A stretch of DNA of 64,000 nt. Origin: Kordiimonadales bacterium IMCC3096. GTDB lineage: Bacteria; Pseudomonadota; Alphaproteobacteria; Minwuiales; Minwuiaceae. The position numbers were made by a program, and so were the translations under genes. The notes under the pieces are model-generated. The model was not told where the DNA came from. It saw only the letters and a list, made by a program, of their open reading frames with translations, and did not search any database. The stretch is taken from positions 3,816,115-3,880,114 of the forward strand of contig CP018227.1 in assembly GCA_016865035.1 (NCBI GenBank), given 5' to 3'. Shown piece after piece: positions 4,473-13,348 of this stretch (the first letter of the stretch is position 1; each line of letters opens with the position of its first letter).

Positions 4473-5104
4473 CCGCCGGGAGAATGCGGCGGTATTGCGC
4501 TCCGGACGCAGCCGTGAACTGACTTGTGCGGTGAGGGGGAGGCAAACCGGTTCCGGTCTGCCGATCCCTGATCGTGGTCAGGTAGGGTAGGAACCTGGCA
4601 TCGCGACAGATTCAACGGGTGTGAATGTCGCCCGGTTCCCGGAATCAGAGTGAGACCCTGGCACTTCCTGTTTCAATCCGGAAAATGGAAAAGAAAATAA
4701 TGCTGAATTCCGTCGAAAAATATTGCCTGCCGGACCGATAATAAAAACATAGTGAAAAATCACTGACTTCCGCTTCTGCGAAATATCTGATGACATTTCA
4801 ATGAATATCAAGTAGAAGAAGCATCTGCCGTGCAGTTGTTCGTGTGAAATCAAGCAATCTACATTGGCTGAATGGCGGGGCCATCGCTCACAGGTGATCG
4901 GGAATCCCGCCGGACGAAAATCTGCGAAATCGACCGTGTGACTGCAGGTACCGAGGCGGAATCCATGCCGTGTCGGGGCCGGTTCAGGCCGGGACTGTGC
5001 CCTGCGGGCCGGTCCGACCCTGATGAGGATGGACGCGGGCGCAGGTGAATTCGAACAGGATCAATCATAGCGCAGGCGGCGCTTCCCCCGCCGGAGGAAC
5101 GACA
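4473..5104. other. Intergenic region with second AT-rich stretch
   Basis: This 632-base gap contains no gene I can support. Bases about 4660-4860 are AT-rich, like 2550-2750. They share AAATA(A/T)TGCTGAATT with the first stretch (4695-4709 against 2601-2615, one mismatch), which may be chance in AT-rich sequence. The rest is ordinary GC-rich sequence leading to the ribosome site of the gene at 5105. Confidence 0.55.
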
Positions 5105-5458
5105 GTGAATTTTCCCGTATGGACGAAACCCGGCATCTACGGCGCAATCGTGGGCGGTGTCATCGTCTCCATCGTGGGCTTTTCCGCGGGCGGCTGGATG
5201 ACCGGCAGCAAGGCGAACGAGATGGCGCATTCGATGGCCGCTGACCAGGTCGTCGCCGCTCTGGTGCCGGTCTGTCACAATACGGCTGCTGCCGATCCGG
5301 ATCGGGAAGCCAAGGTGCTGACCATCAGCCAGTCGGTCGGCTACAGCCGGTACAAGGCAGTGATGGAAGCTGGTTGGGCCACGCCTCCGGGAAGCGACTC
5401 ACCTGATGTCAATCTGGCGCGTGCCTGCGTCGAAGGCCTGAATCTCGACGCGTCCTGA
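5105..5458 (+). CDS. Membrane-anchored hypothetical protein
   Basis: The 117-residue protein has one N-terminal membrane helix (about residues 10-32, GIYGAIVGGVIVSIVGFSAGG) followed by WMTGSKANEMA and a small soluble domain with two cysteines, at VCHN and RACVEG. Small alphaproteobacterial proteins of this layout are common and uncharacterised. GTG at 5105 is preferred because GGAGG lies 7 bases upstream; a GTG at 5045 in the same frame would add 20 low-complexity residues and lacks such a site. The C-terminal domain probably faces the periplasm. Function unknown. Confidence 0.75.
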   Translation: MNFPVWTKPGIYGAIVGGVIVSIVGFSAGGWMTGSKANEMAHSMAADQVVAALVPVCHNTAAADPDREAKVLTISQSVGYSRYKAVMEAGWATPPGSDSPDVNLARACVEGLNLDAS

Positions 5459-5476
5459 GATAGCGATGACCGATCA

Positions 5477-5507
5477 GCGTCGGGCGTGTGCAAGGCACGT
5501 CCGACGC
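5477..5507 (+). terminator. Strong hairpin after the hypothetical gene
   Basis: A 13-bp stem (5477-5489 with 5495-5507, two G:U pairs) closes a 5-base loop GCAAG, 18 bases after the stop codon at 5458. There is no T run, so it may stabilise the 3' end or act with Rho rather than as a classical terminator. Confidence 0.45.
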
Positions 5508-5809
5508 CGGTCCTGCCGATCTCGGGGACACCAGTAGGCACAATTACGGCACCTGCCGTCGGGAGAACGAGACGCTTGTCGCGAAACGCGCAGGTCCGCA
5601 CGTGAGCGTCGGACGTTGAGCGCGCACGCCGCGCCCGATGACCGCTGTCGGGCAGGAGTATTCGTGATTCTGAAGCCACGTCCCGATGTATCGGCGCGGG
5701 TGCACTTCCCCTCATCCTCCAGACCGCAGGATCCCAGGTGCGAGGGGTCCATCAGGGTCACCAAAAGTTTCGGTGGACCATCCCATTATGTTATCCAGAA
5801 GGACCACTC
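5508..5809. other. Leader/promoter region of the DgcN-like operon
   Basis: About 300 bases without a supportable gene. It must contain the promoter of the operon starting at 5810. I saw no clear -35/-10 pair, riboswitch or palindrome. Frames crossing it are continuations of the downstream gene's frame or of shadows. Confidence 0.4.
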
Positions 5810-6949
5810 ATGCAGACCCAACGCCCAGTCGATCTCGGACAAGCAAGCGACGTTCCGGCAGGATCAGCACCCACGGCAATCGTCTACTGCGAAGGAAATT
5901 TCGGGAAGATCGACGGCAAGACCGCCAATGGCCTTGTCCGGCATTCGGAAAAGTATCGCATTGTCTCGGTGATCGACAGTGATAACGACGGGCGTGACAG
6001 TGGTCAGATCCTTGGGCATCTCGCCAACCAGATCCCGGTCCACCGCGACCTCGGGTCGGCGCTGGGCGAGGAGGTACTGGTTCCCGACACCTTCATTTAC
6101 GGCATGGCACCGGCCAACGGAAAGCTGTCGCCGAAGGATCGCGCCGTGGTGCTTGCGGCAATCACGCGGGGCATGAACATCGTCAGCGGTCTGCACGAGT
6201 ATCTGGGCGACGATGACGAGATCGCCACCGCAGCACGTTCTCATGGCGTGGCCATCCGGGACGTCCGCAGGCCGCGCCCGGTCAAGGACATGCGTCTGTT
6301 CGACGGCAGCGTTGGCGACGTTGAGGCTATTCGCATTGCCGTGCTGGGCACGGATTGCGCAATCGGAAAGCGGACAACAGCGACCGTCCTCTCCGATGCC
6401 CTGAACGACCACGGCATCCGCACCGTGGTGGTGGGAACGGGCCAGACGGGTCTGATGCAGGGCGCGCGCTACGGCGTCGCGCTGGACGCCGTGCCGCCAC
6501 AATATTGTTGCGGAGAACTGGAGCGGGCAGTTGTCGCCGCCTCGGTCAACGAGCGGCCGGACGTTATCCTGATCGAGGGCCAGGGCGCGTTGAGCCACCC
6601 GGCCTTCTGCACATCCGCGTTCATCCTTCGCGGCAGCCAGCCGCAGGCGGTCATCCTGCAGCATGCTCCCCGACGCGCCCATCGCTGTGACTTTCCGACG
6701 ATGCCGATGCCCGACCCACGTGACGAGATCGCCCTGATCGAGGCGTTCTCCGATACCAGAGTGATCGGCATGACGATCAATCACGAGGATATGACCGACA
6801 GCGATATCGGGTCAGCCATCATCAGCTACCAGAGTGAACTGTGCATTCCCGTGACCGATGCGTTGAGCCGCCCCGCGATGGAACTCGCGGAGATGGTGCT
6901 GTCGGCATTTCCGGAACTGCGCACTGCGCCCGCCATGGCCATGGCATGA
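5810..6949 (+). CDS. DUF1611 family protein, DgcN-like
   Basis: The 379-residue protein belongs to the DUF1611 family by overall pattern. The N-terminal domain has TAIVYCEGNFGKIDGKTANG and ends near PDTFIYGMAPANGKL. The C-terminal P-loop-like domain carries GTDCAIGKRTT at 180-190, GTGQTGLMQGARYG, and EGQGALSHP. A family member, DgcN, has been reported as a D-glutamate N-acetyltransferase acting with the enolase-superfamily enzyme DgcA. Here the partner is instead a PLP racemase whose start overlaps this stop by ATGA. I chose the ATG at 5810 because AGAAGGA precedes it; the frame is open back to 5738. The substrate is inferred only. Confidence 0.8.
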   Translation: MQTQRPVDLGQASDVPAGSAPTAIVYCEGNFGKIDGKTANGLVRHSEKYRIVSVIDSDNDGRDSGQILGHLANQIPVHRDLGSALGEEVLVPDTFIYGMAPANGKLSPKDRAVVLAAITRGMNIVSGLHEYLGDDDEIATAARSHGVAIRDVRRPRPVKDMRLFDGSVGDVEAIRIAVLGTDCAIGKRTTATVLSDALNDHGIRTVVVGTGQTGLMQGARYGVALDAVPPQYCCGELERAVVAASVNERPDVILIEGQGALSHPAFCTSAFILRGSQPQAVILQHAPRRAHRCDFPTMPMPDPRDEIALIEAFSDTRVIGMTINHEDMTDSDIGSAIISYQSELCIPVTDALSRPAMELAEMVLSAFPELRTAPAMAMA

Positions 6950-8067
6950 CGGCACCGCGCATCGAGATCGAATTGGGAAAGATCCAGTACAACACACGTC
7001 ACATCGTCACACAGTTGCGTGCACACGGCATCGGGGTGACAGGCGTGACCAAGGCTGTCTGCGGTCACCCTGCCGTTGCCAGGGCCATGCTGGACGGGGG
7101 CGCCACCGGATTGGCTGAGTCACGGATCACCAATGTCGTGCGGTTGCTCGGCGCGGGCATGACGTGTCCCATTGCGATGATCCGGACACCGATGAAGAGT
7201 CAGGCCGAGCTGGTCAGCCAAGATTGTGTCACCAGCTACAACACCGAAATCGAGGTCGTCATGTGCCTTGCTGCGGCTGCGCGCAAGACGGGAAAGATTC
7301 ACGGTATCGTACTGATGGTCGAGATGGGCGACATGCGCGAGGGGATCATGTCGGCCGACCTGACAGCGTTCGCCCGGGATGTGCTTGCCACGACCGGTGT
7401 TTCCCTAAAGGGCATTGGCGCGAACTTCGCCTGCCTCGGTGGTGTCGCGCCTGACGCCGTCACGATGGCGCGTTTCTCGGCCATCGCAACGGACATCGAA
7501 GGCGCGACGGGATGCAAGCTGGACACTGTTTCCGGCGGCAATTCGGCCAACCTGCCGTGGGCCCTTGCAAGTCGCGAACTGTCACGGGTCAATGATCTGC
7601 GGTTGGGCGAAGCAATCCTTCTTGGCGTTGACCCCCTTTCAGGTATCCGTATCGATGGACTCCACACCGACGCCTTCACGCTGATTGCGGAGGTGATCGA
7701 GTCCAAGGTCAAGGCGACTTCGGGATCGCTTGCCGTTGCGGATCCTGCTTGGCGGGGACTTCGTCTGGTGCCGGACAATGACCATTGTCCCCGATCACTG
7801 CTTGCGATCGGGCAGCAGGATACCGATGTGACAGGACTCGAAATGCCGGAGGGAGTGGCGTTTGTCGGGGCCACCAGTGACCACTTGGTCATCCGGGCAG
7901 TGAATTCCGCTTTGAGCGTCGGCAGCGAAGTGAGTTTCCAGATGAACTACGGTGCCCTGATGCGCGCGATGAATTCACCCGACATCACCAAGGTCGTTCG
8001 ACACGACTGGCCCTTCACGTCCGCCCCTTCCTCAAGTTATCGAAACCAGTGTCTGGAGACTGCATGA
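6946..8067 (+). CDS. Fold-type III PLP amino acid racemase, Orr/YhfX-like
   Basis: The 373-residue protein resembles alanine-racemase N-terminal-domain enzymes of the ornithine racemase type. The PLP lysine is expected at K36 in GVTGVTKAVCGHP, followed by barrel strands such as VLMVEMGDMREGI, GIGANFACLGG and VSGGNSANLPWA, and a C-terminal beta domain. The likely reaction is racemisation of a free amino acid in the cytosol. It overlaps the upstream DUF1611 gene by ATGA (6946-6949) and the downstream zinc-ribbon gene by ATGA (8064-8067). The three are therefore probably translated together. The frame extends upstream to 6841, inside the previous gene. Substrate (Glu, Orn or other) unknown. Confidence 0.85.
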   Translation: MTAPRIEIELGKIQYNTRHIVTQLRAHGIGVTGVTKAVCGHPAVARAMLDGGATGLAESRITNVVRLLGAGMTCPIAMIRTPMKSQAELVSQDCVTSYNTEIEVVMCLAAAARKTGKIHGIVLMVEMGDMREGIMSADLTAFARDVLATTGVSLKGIGANFACLGGVAPDAVTMARFSAIATDIEGATGCKLDTVSGGNSANLPWALASRELSRVNDLRLGEAILLGVDPLSGIRIDGLHTDAFTLIAEVIESKVKATSGSLAVADPAWRGLRLVPDNDHCPRSLLAIGQQDTDVTGLEMPEGVAFVGATSDHLVIRAVNSALSVGSEVSFQMNYGALMRAMNSPDITKVVRHDWPFTSAPSSSYRNQCLETA

Positions 8068-8270
8068 TACGCCATACCGGCAAAGAACCTGAAGTTTTCG
8101 GGGGCCACGCGCCCCTGCCACGCGCCAATGCCGACGTCGCGAAGACACGATCCTGCCTGCGCTGTCAGGAGAAGTTCGACAGTTCGGGCTTCGGAGAACG
8201 CATCTGTCGTCGCTGCAAGTCGACTTCGAGCTGGCGCGACGGCAATCCGGGGCCGTCCGGCAGGCGCTAG
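8064..8270 (+). CDS. Small zinc-ribbon protein
   Basis: The 68-residue basic protein has two CxxC pairs (C31-C34 in SCLRCQE, C48-C51 in ICRRCKS) spaced as a treble-clef or ribbon zinc site, with disordered ends rich in Arg, Gly and Pro. The ATG at 8064 overlaps the racemase stop as ATGA, which argues for a real, co-translated gene; a GTG at 8049 in the same frame would start inside the racemase. Similar short zinc-ribbon proteins occur in proteobacteria without known function. A nucleic-acid-binding or assembly role is only a guess. Confidence 0.7.
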   Translation: MIRHTGKEPEVFGGHAPLPRANADVAKTRSCLRCQEKFDSSGFGERICRRCKSTSSWRDGNPGPSGRR

Positions 8271-8294
8271 CTTCGTCCCGTCCTGACGACGTGT

Positions 8295-8332
8295 CCCGCG
8301 CGCGCCACACCATGCCGCATGGGCCGCGCGGG
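8295..8332. terminator. GC-rich hairpin after the DgcN-like operon
   Basis: Arms CCCGCGCG (8295-8302) and CGCGCGGG (8325-8332) enclose a 22-base loop, 24 bases after the zinc-ribbon stop. A TTTT run occurs 18 bases further on, too far for a standard terminator. Confidence 0.3.
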
Positions 8333-8418
8333 TCGTCGGGGCAGGGGCAATTTTCTGCTTACCCGTCCGCCCGGCCCCGCTAGCATGTGGTCCCCAGACA
8401 CGTGGCCGGCCCGCAGAC

Positions 8419-9336
8419 ATGCACGAACCTCCATCCGCCGACCGCAATGACCTCATGCTGAGGTTCGCGCCTGCACTGTTCGTGCTGCTCTGGAGCAGTG
8501 GCTTCATTGCCGCCAAGGCCGGACTCGCGGATGCGGAACCCCTGACATACCTCAGCCTGCGCTACTGGATCGTTGCGATCCTGATGGCGGGGCTGGCGCT
8601 GGCCATGCGGGCGCCCTGGCCACGGTCCCGGCGTGAGCTGGGGCACGTCATGATCGCCGGGGTGATGTTGCAGGCGATCTACTTCGCCGGATCCTGGCTG
8701 GCCCTCGGGCGAGGGGTCGGGGCTGGTACCGCGGCACTGATTGTCTGCCTGCAACCGGTCATCACCGCCGTACTCGCCGGACCTCTGCTGGGGGAGCGGG
8801 TTTCGCCGCGACAATGGCTGGGGCTCGCGCTGGGCCTGACCGGTGTCGGGCTGGTGGTCTCCCACAAGCTGGGGGCAGGCCTTGGCAGTGCCGAGGGTGT
8901 GGCCTGGGCGTTCCTGGGGCTGCTGGGCATTACCTTCGGCACGCTCTACCAGAAGAAGTTCTGCCGGACGATGGATCCGCGCAGCGGCACCGCTATCCAG
9001 TTCCTGGTCGCGGCGGTGCTGCTTACACCCATCGGTTGGCTGTTCGAGGATGGGACCATCAACTGGACGCCAACCTTCATCGCTTCCCTGGGCTATATCG
9101 TCGTCGTCATGTCGCTGTTCACCATGATCCTGCTCACCATGATGATCCAGCGCGGGGAAGCGTCGCGGGTGACCGGCTGGTTCTTTCTGGTGCCGCCCAG
9201 TGCGGCGCTTCTGGCCTGGATCATTCTCGACGAGCCCTTTGGCCCGGTTGCACTGGCAGGGATGGCAGTGGCGGCGGTGGGCGTCGCACTGGTCATGACA
9301 TCGGGCCGTGCCACCGTCGGCAAGCTGGCCAACTGA
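8419..9336 (+). CDS. EamA-family (DMT) transporter
   Basis: The 305-residue protein is hydrophobic throughout, with about ten membrane helices arranged as two EamA repeats. The first repeat starts at FAPALFVLLWSSGFIAAKAGLADAEPLTYLSLRYW, with the typical LQPVITAVLAGPLLGERVSPRQWLGL end. The second ends at LDEPFGPVALAGMAVAAVGVALV. Relatives export amino acids or other small metabolites; the direction and substrate are not visible. No clear ribosome site precedes the 8419 ATG, and an in-frame ATG at 8455 is an alternative. It is a single gene between two unrelated neighbours. Confidence 0.88.
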   Translation: MHEPPSADRNDLMLRFAPALFVLLWSSGFIAAKAGLADAEPLTYLSLRYWIVAILMAGLALAMRAPWPRSRRELGHVMIAGVMLQAIYFAGSWLALGRGVGAGTAALIVCLQPVITAVLAGPLLGERVSPRQWLGLALGLTGVGLVVSHKLGAGLGSAEGVAWAFLGLLGITFGTLYQKKFCRTMDPRSGTAIQFLVAAVLLTPIGWLFEDGTINWTPTFIASLGYIVVVMSLFTMILLTMMIQRGEASRVTGWFFLVPPSAALLAWIILDEPFGPVALAGMAVAAVGVALVMTSGRATVGKLAN

Positions 9337-11240: not shown

Positions 11241-11267
11241 TTAGCACTCAATCGATGTGAGTGCTAA
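11241..11267. promoter_or_regulatory. CIRCE operator (HrcA binding site)
   Basis: Arms TTAGCACTC (11241-11249) and GAGTGCTAA (11259-11267) flank a 9-base spacer, an exact match to the CIRCE consensus. HrcA binds this element and represses groESL in the absence of heat stress. It lies 46 bases before the groES start. Confidence 0.95.
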
Positions 11268-11313
11268 CGACACTCAGGACACACAGTATCCAATCCGAGG
11301 GAGGGTACAGACG

Positions 11314-11604
11314 ATGGGCTTCAGGCCTCTGCACGACCGCGTGGTGGTTCGCCGCCTCGAATCAGAAGAGAAGACCGCTGGTGGGATCATCATCCCCGAC
11401 ACCGCCAAGGAAAAGCCGATGGAAGGCGAAGTCGTCTCCGTGGGCAATGGCGCGCGCAACGACAAGGGCGAAGTCGTTGCCCTGGACCTGAAGGCAGGCG
11501 ATCGCGTCCTGTTCGGCAAGTGGTCCGGCACTGAGGTCAAGATCGACGGCGAAGAGCTGCTGATCATGAAGGAATCCGACATCATGGGTGTCATCGAGGG
11601 CTGA
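11314..11604 (+). CDS. groES: Co-chaperonin GroES
   Basis: The 96-residue protein is the heptameric lid of the GroEL folding chamber. It starts with [29 protein letters not shown], and the GroEL-contacting mobile loop falls in [17 protein letters not shown]. Length is normal. GAGGGAGG lies shortly before the ATG at 11314; an in-frame GTG at 11257 lies inside the CIRCE element and is not credible. It is first in the groES-groEL operon under a CIRCE element. Confidence 0.98.
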
Positions 11605-11677
11605 TCCGGCTTCTCGCCGCTCTCCCCCGACACACAGGATGATCGCCGGCGCACCTACGGGTGAGCCGGCAACTTGA

Positions 11678-13348
<1,671 letters not shown>

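Follow-up and report, generated by a model that had tools for sequence, protein, structure and literature searches.

A conserved unit of a DUF1611 protein and a PLP racemase

A gene for a DUF1611 protein and, directly after it, a gene for a pyridoxal 5'-phosphate (PLP) racemase form a conserved two-gene unit with near-constant pairing. We describe this pair from Kordiimonadales bacterium IMCC3096, where it lies in a 64,000-nucleotide stretch of contig CP018227.1 (the whole stretch is called the window here) and is followed by a small zinc-ribbon gene (Table 1). Within one family, DUF1611, separate clades have as partners racemases whose two folds are unrelated. We tentatively propose that the pair racemises a free basic amino acid and that the DUF1611 protein then N-acylates, or activates, one enantiomer. 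No description of a DUF1611/PLP-racemase module was found in one open-licence literature library, and to that extent the module is undescribed, as the original prediction for this operon had supposed.

The evidence for the unit comes from its distribution. Searching species genomes with the DUF1611 protein gave 99 relatives; the best 80 were retained as loci, so that more distant ones are missing. The racemase gene directly follows the DUF1611 gene in 80 out of 80 (L069 and L077 are cut by contig ends), and the stop and start codons of the two genes overlap by 4 bp in 77, as ATGA in 40, TTGA in 28 and GTGA in 9, with start codons assigned mechanically as those nearest to the alignment start. 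Thus, the pairing with a PLP racemase in place of DgcA, which had been noticed in the window, proved to be a conserved module. The loci come from several phyla; by record title, their sources comprise Rhodobacterales, Minwuia, Kiloniella, Roseibium/Labrenzia, Ahrensia, Filomicrobium, Thiotrichaceae, Vibrio, Burkholderiales, a deltaproteobacterial metagenome-assembled genome (MAG) and actinobacterial MAGs. One pair-carrying MAG (72% identity) is labelled Blastopirellula and may be mis-binned.

The same coherence is seen in a sample of 198 Rhodobacteraceae-like genomes, where the racemase subfamily (at least 53% identity) and the DUF1611 subfamily (at least 55%) occur in the same 20 genomes and are adjacent and on one strand in all 20. 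The sample includes the seed (G127), G139 and G143, already known to carry the pair and all three among the 20, and the copy in G287 is broken. A twenty-first racemase, that of G232 (37% identity), is without a pair-type DUF1611 partner. The pair is therefore rare but coherent. Moreover, a mirror-tree comparison of 30 pairs gave r = 0.94 between the distances of the DUF1611 proteins and those of the racemases, a value reached by none of 2000 permutations. Within the window's own genus the racemase occurs in three of seven genomes, its own included, which indicates a patchy distribution.

DUF1611 clades with different racemase partners

Membership of the window protein in DUF1611 is clear, with 84.2 bits to PF17396 (cut-off 22.6) and 218.5 bits to PF07755 (cut-off 25). 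It had been called DgcN-like, which is correct at the level of the family but not for DgcN itself: the protein scores 157.3 bits against the DgcN equivalog NF041892 (cut-off 480), is about 30% identical to DgcN and falls in a separate clade, so that orthology with DgcN is rejected. In addition, its adjacent gene encodes a PF01168 PLP racemase and not an enolase-superfamily DgcA. A true DgcN (521.6 bits) directly beside DgcA (486 bits), both above their cut-offs, is found elsewhere in the same genome, which therefore holds both systems. A further alanine-racemase-fold gene (G000:C1:1089312-1089992) lies about 6 kb from this DgcN-DgcA pair.

Different DUF1611 clades are paired with an enolase-superfamily or a PLP racemase, which amounts to a swap of partners. 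In a sample of 100 Actinomycetota genomes, 14 have a DUF1611 gene, which lies beside a DgcA-like enolase-superfamily gene in 12 (one of them partial, at a contig end) and beside a PLP racemase gene in 2 (one of them the seed). A further sample of 99 genomes gave a DUF1611 gene in two, one again the seed. All 11 further Rhodobacteraceae-like DUF1611 loci, hand-picked from a longer list rather than drawn at random, adjoin an enolase-type gene. In the DUF1611 tree, whose alignment contains some rows with over-long N-termini from mechanical start choice, 24 enolase-paired proteins split from the PLP-paired clade with support of 99/99. The original prediction had counted distance from DgcN in a family tree, together with a lack of activity on amino acids, against a module; the window's clade does stand apart from the enolase-paired proteins, and its pairing with the racemase still stands.

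Despite this divergence, both DUF1611 types share 52 positions, including the P-loop, TGQTG and EGQG motifs, and G180, A184, G186 and K187 are each kept in at least 90% of 30 pair-type and 13 enolase-paired proteins. DgcN-DgcA and the present pair are thus alike in that a DUF1611 protein with this core adjoins an amino-acid racemase, and unlike in the racemase, which is of the enolase superfamily in the former and of PLP fold III in the latter. The structure model of the window protein has a predicted local distance difference test score (pLDDT) of 84.4, and its closest structures in a Foldseek search are 2OBN, 2G0T and DgcN (7XRJ, titled N-acetyltransferase DgcN). 2OBN and 2G0T share the overall fold of the model, with template modelling (TM) scores of 0.82 and 0.78, and their titles name no function.

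The two-gene unit also travels on plasmids. Ten plasmid records have the DUF1611 protein at E ≤1e-60, and the racemase gene adjoins in seven. Among the three homologs without racemase, that of V. coralliilyticus has a C-terminal end that fails to align. The other two are from V. nigripulchritudo, and in the one compared 21 of the 52 core residues are changed, among them the P-loop lysine. It looks as if partner and function had been lost together, judging from these sequences. On a V. nigripulchritudo plasmid, the racemase-less DUF1611 gene with a degenerate P-loop (L168, 8893-10062) has genes annotated as Wadjet-type defence within a few kb.

The racemase and its likely substrate

The racemase scores 78.8 bits against PF01168, above the cut-off, and stays below those of the Orr and alanine racemase profiles. 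The Orr profile NF040742 (cut-off 480) gives 270.7 bits for the window protein, 309.7 for L083 and 360.1 for L082; the alanine racemase profile TIGR00492 gives 31.7 against a cut-off of 168. For YhfX (4KBX), which the original prediction had named, the profile match is 37.5 bits over residues 8-164 only. The predicted model (pLDDT 88.6) has the alanine-racemase fold (Foldseek E 2e-20, TM about 0.7). K36, R60, N63, C163, R219 and Y335 are identical in 31 of 31 module rows and in 9 of 9 other Arg- or Orr-type rows, while R80 is found in eight and H119 in seven of the nine non-module racemases compared. We take Lys36 to be the lysine that forms the Schiff base with PLP, a role adopted from the alanine racemase family. 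Orr is thus of the same PLP family as the window racemase along almost its whole length and shares its active-site residues, but the two belong to separate clades and a DUF1611 neighbor in 80 of 80 loci marks the module racemase.

In the racemase tree, the module racemases form a single clade (100/99), the racemase of G232 comes next (99/89), and then a group from Roseateles, Shinella and Sinorhizobium, with the Orr-type group outside (98/92). Four alanine racemases (L007-L010) dropped out of this tree for want of a match, and the module clade includes one partial row (L006). Of the nearest relatives of the module racemases, those of G232, Roseateles and Shinella (37-39% identity) have telling neighbors. 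The G232 gene is in an apparent operon with genes for arginase-family and ornithine-cyclodeaminase-family proteins and an ABC transporter with a family-3 binding protein, and the Roseateles and Shinella genes lie near those for agmatinase, 5-guanidino-2-oxopentanoate decarboxylase, D-amino-acid dehydrogenase and RidA. Iminoarginine, the product of D-arginine dehydrogenase, can be hydrolysed by Rid proteins (PMC5619798). Unlike the module racemases, these relatives show no DUF1611 partner, and the Roseateles enzyme, beside its D-amino-acid dehydrogenase, is moreover fused to an arginase-family domain. Because the nearest relatives stand in operons of arginine or ornithine type, a basic amino acid is the likeliest substrate of the module racemase, as far as gene neighborhoods can tell. 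A racemase/arginase-family fusion (by Pfam) at L187 (8001-9788) sits in an apparent D-arginine degradation operon and is possibly an arginine racemase; L188 has a racemase fusion of the same length with the same neighbors.

A possible reaction order and its alternatives

In the DgcN-DgcA system, acetylation with acetyl-CoA renders the conversion from D to L irreversible. A PLP racemase must bind the free amino group of its substrate, and an N-acylated amino acid is not a substrate for it. DgcA, on the other hand, is named an N-acetyl-D-Glu racemase (NF042940). Racemisation by the pair described here should therefore precede N-acylation of the alpha-amine, the reverse of DgcN-DgcA, and we infer the order racemisation then acylation on a basic substrate. 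In our proposal, which is plausible but tentative, the racemase, with PLP on Lys36, would bring the two enantiomers of a free amino acid (arginine, ornithine or lysine being the likeliest) into equilibrium; the P-loop domain of the DUF1611 protein would N-acylate or otherwise activate one enantiomer; and this capping would pull racemisation one way, much as acetylation does in DgcN-DgcA. Acyl transfer is assumed here by analogy with DgcN, and the step could instead be an ATP-dependent ligation. The zinc-ribbon protein, the proteins of three families that often flank the pair (c6, c7 and c40, see below) and other neighbors would stand outside the reaction. The wider interest is that the chemistry of the two racemase folds forces opposite reaction orders.

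Several observations weigh against this proposal. Glu126 of the racemase is invariant in the module, whereas eight of the nine other racemases, those of the arginine-type operons among them, have Asp, so the substrate preference may have shifted; as a module-only residue Glu126 is weakened, because the Persicobacter racemase also has Glu. Both trees are midpoint-rooted, with few outgroup rows and long-branch warnings. One very divergent DUF1611 protein (L186) has neither partner detected within its 3.5-kb locus, and among the 80 loci no transporter, dehydrogenase or deacylase gene was noticed as a recurring neighbor. Lastly, acyl transfer is made uncertain by the likeness of DUF1611 to P-loop enzymes that use ATP or GTP.

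This last point leads to a somewhat unlikely alternative, in which the DUF1611 protein would be a ligase or kinase-like enzyme resembling BioD or MurD, activating a carboxylate or amine with ATP and not transferring an acyl group from acyl-CoA. The conserved Walker A motif would suit such an enzyme, and the weak Foldseek matches beyond DUF1611 are largely to ATP or GTP enzymes (BioD, cyclic 2,3-diphosphoglycerate synthetase, MeaB and MurD). However, DgcN, the relative with a named activity, is an N-acetyltransferase (7XRJ, NF041892) built on the same P-loop core.

It is improbable that the pair serves catabolic salvage, with the racemase converting environmental D-amino acids to the L form and the DUF1611 protein acylating the L product or an amide. 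The carriers are, by record title, largely marine genera, and DgcN has a known role in irreversible racemisation of D-acidic amino acids (PMC12363236), but the 80 loci show no recurring dedicated transporter or catabolic enzyme.

Quite improbable, too, is a place for the pair in stress or envelope biology, with its D-amino acid product acting as a solute or a signal. Such a role would accord with GroEL genes near the pair, in the window, in the fetched flanks of 4 of 80 relatives and on two plasmids (Phaeobacter and Vibrio europaeus), with HflKC genes on plasmids and near the pair in 2 of 80 relatives, with Hsp20 on one plasmid, with the Cys-rich protein c7 and with the GspS-beta pilotin of Vibrio. 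Yet the GroES-GroEL genes at 11257-13348 of the window, 3 kb downstream of the operon, include the only GroEL of the genome, so that their nearness may be chance, and the remaining links are scarce and in part orthologous.

The zinc-ribbon gene and the regional gene cassette

The original prediction had joined all three genes into one pathway. It described the third product as a 68-residue CxxC-CxxC protein, and a CX2C-X13-CX2C arrangement is indeed present, although the protein is below every Pfam cut-off (PF11682, Zn_ribbon_11, at 12.3 against 24 bits). The genome has one strong copy of it. Its gene directly follows the racemase gene in 2 of the 80 pair loci (L011 and L015) and follows c40, which encodes a protein of about 210 aa, in 12 more, giving 14 of 80 in total. 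The 4-bp overlap between the racemase and zinc-ribbon genes recurs in L011 and L005, which are related loci, and on an Aliiroseovarius plasmid (L190).

In the 198 Rhodobacteraceae-like genomes, the zinc-ribbon gene is present in 34, namely in 9 of 20 pair genomes and in 25 of 178 that lack the pair (Fisher p 0.002, uncorrected for relatedness); of the genomes reached via pair loci, 13 of 48 have it. Twelve zinc-ribbon loci without an intact pair, hand-picked from a longer list and not random, contain c40 in 10 and, just downstream of the zinc-ribbon gene, a whole or partial transglutaminase-like gene in 11 (Pfam check made on L206). A second transglutaminase-like gene lies between c7 and c40 in L202, L206, L208 and L209. 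Five Rhodobacteraceae-like loci (L199, L200, L202, L206 and L209) have the order Crp/Fnr, c26, c6, c7, c40 and zinc ribbon without the pair, and in L210 the pair is reduced to fragments. In G198, conversely, the pair is intact while the zinc-ribbon frame next to it is interrupted by an internal stop. A three-gene pathway with the zinc-ribbon protein as a subunit or regulator, for which the second ATGA overlap, the recurring tandem and the enrichment in pair genomes could speak, is therefore very improbable, given that, by the test which the original prediction itself had set, the gene is missing from most pair genomes (11 of 20), 25 genomes have it without the pair, and it sits with other genes elsewhere or is broken beside an intact pair; as a dedicated third member it is rejected on its distribution.

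c6 is present in the window and in 58 of 80 relatives, and the order c6, c7, DUF1611, racemase occurs in 55 of 80. In Rhodobacterales the pair often lies between c6/c7 and c40/zinc ribbon, genes that also occur without it, and the window has c6 upstream and the zinc ribbon downstream but lacks c7 and c40. The c7 protein is made of Cys-rich repeats, looks secreted by eye and has weak EGF-like Pfam matches; no function assigned to the cassette from Crp/Fnr to the zinc ribbon was found. Most simply read, the pair is cargo next to a flock of regional genes. Going further, the pair could be a second, undescribed DUF1611-based D-amino-acid pathway with reversed order, carried across several phyla as mobile two-gene cargo of marine bacteria and placed, in many Rhodobacterales, between the c6-c7 and c40-zinc ribbon halves of a separable cassette, which is possible but rather doubtful.

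The locus and its other neighbors

The three genes stand as first described, in position as well as in the two ATGA overlaps, and all three frames are open. Compared with L011, a Minwuia MAG contig of the same genus, the ratio of nonsynonymous to synonymous substitution rates is about 0.11 for the DUF1611 gene, 0.11 for the racemase gene and 0.18 for the zinc-ribbon gene, which indicates purifying selection on all three, and they behave as real genes.

Table 1. Features of the operon and its upstream flank (positions in the window)
Feature	Position	Strand	Remark
c6, small protein, one hydrophobic stretch by eye	5045..5458	+	upstream of pair
DUF1611 protein gene, 379 aa	5810..6949	+	N-terminal Rossmann-like domain and P-loop domain; core partner of pair
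Walker A / P-loop GTDCAIGKRTTA, residues 180-191 of DUF1611 protein	6347..6382	+	
EGQG motif, residues 256-259, DUF1611 core	6575..6586	+	kept in both DUF1611 types
ATGA stop/start overlap, DUF1611/racemase	6946..6949	+	
PLP fold-III racemase gene, 373 aa, alanine/ornithine racemase family	6946..8067	+	core partner of pair
Lys36 codon of racemase, expected PLP Schiff-base lysine	7051..7053	+	role as in alanine racemase family
ATGA stop/start overlap, racemase/zinc ribbon	8064..8067	+	
Zinc-ribbon protein gene, 68 aa	8064..8270	+	optional neighbor, outside core

A scan for sigma-70-type sites only gave no consensus promoter, and no terminator was found, at 4800-8500. RNA structure 3' of the operon shows no excess over shuffled sequences (z -0.56). 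Origin from a defence system is rejected, with zero PADLOC matches for six proteins, as is a phage origin, with one weak match of unknown function (the zinc ribbon) for five proteins searched against PHROGs; one distant phage racemase (28%) was met in this check.

Other genes near the pair vary with lineage. HflK-HflC genes are close to the pair, to a racemase-less DUF1611 gene or to the cassette in L167, L170, L191, L019, L042 and L208, Vibrio and Ruegeria plasmids among them. A gene for a GspS-beta type II secretion pilotin directly follows the racemase gene in seven of eight Vibrio pair loci (L082, L089, L090, L167, L169, L192 and L193, not L086). In three actinobacterial loci (L083, L085 and L087), an aldehyde dehydrogenase gene lies upstream of the pair on the same strand. 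Finally, a tyrosine recombinase gene is present in the fetched flanks of 25 of the 80 loci, in many of them with genes for BLUF and 2-oxoglutarate-Fe(II) (2OG-Fe(II)) oxygenase proteins separating it from the pair.

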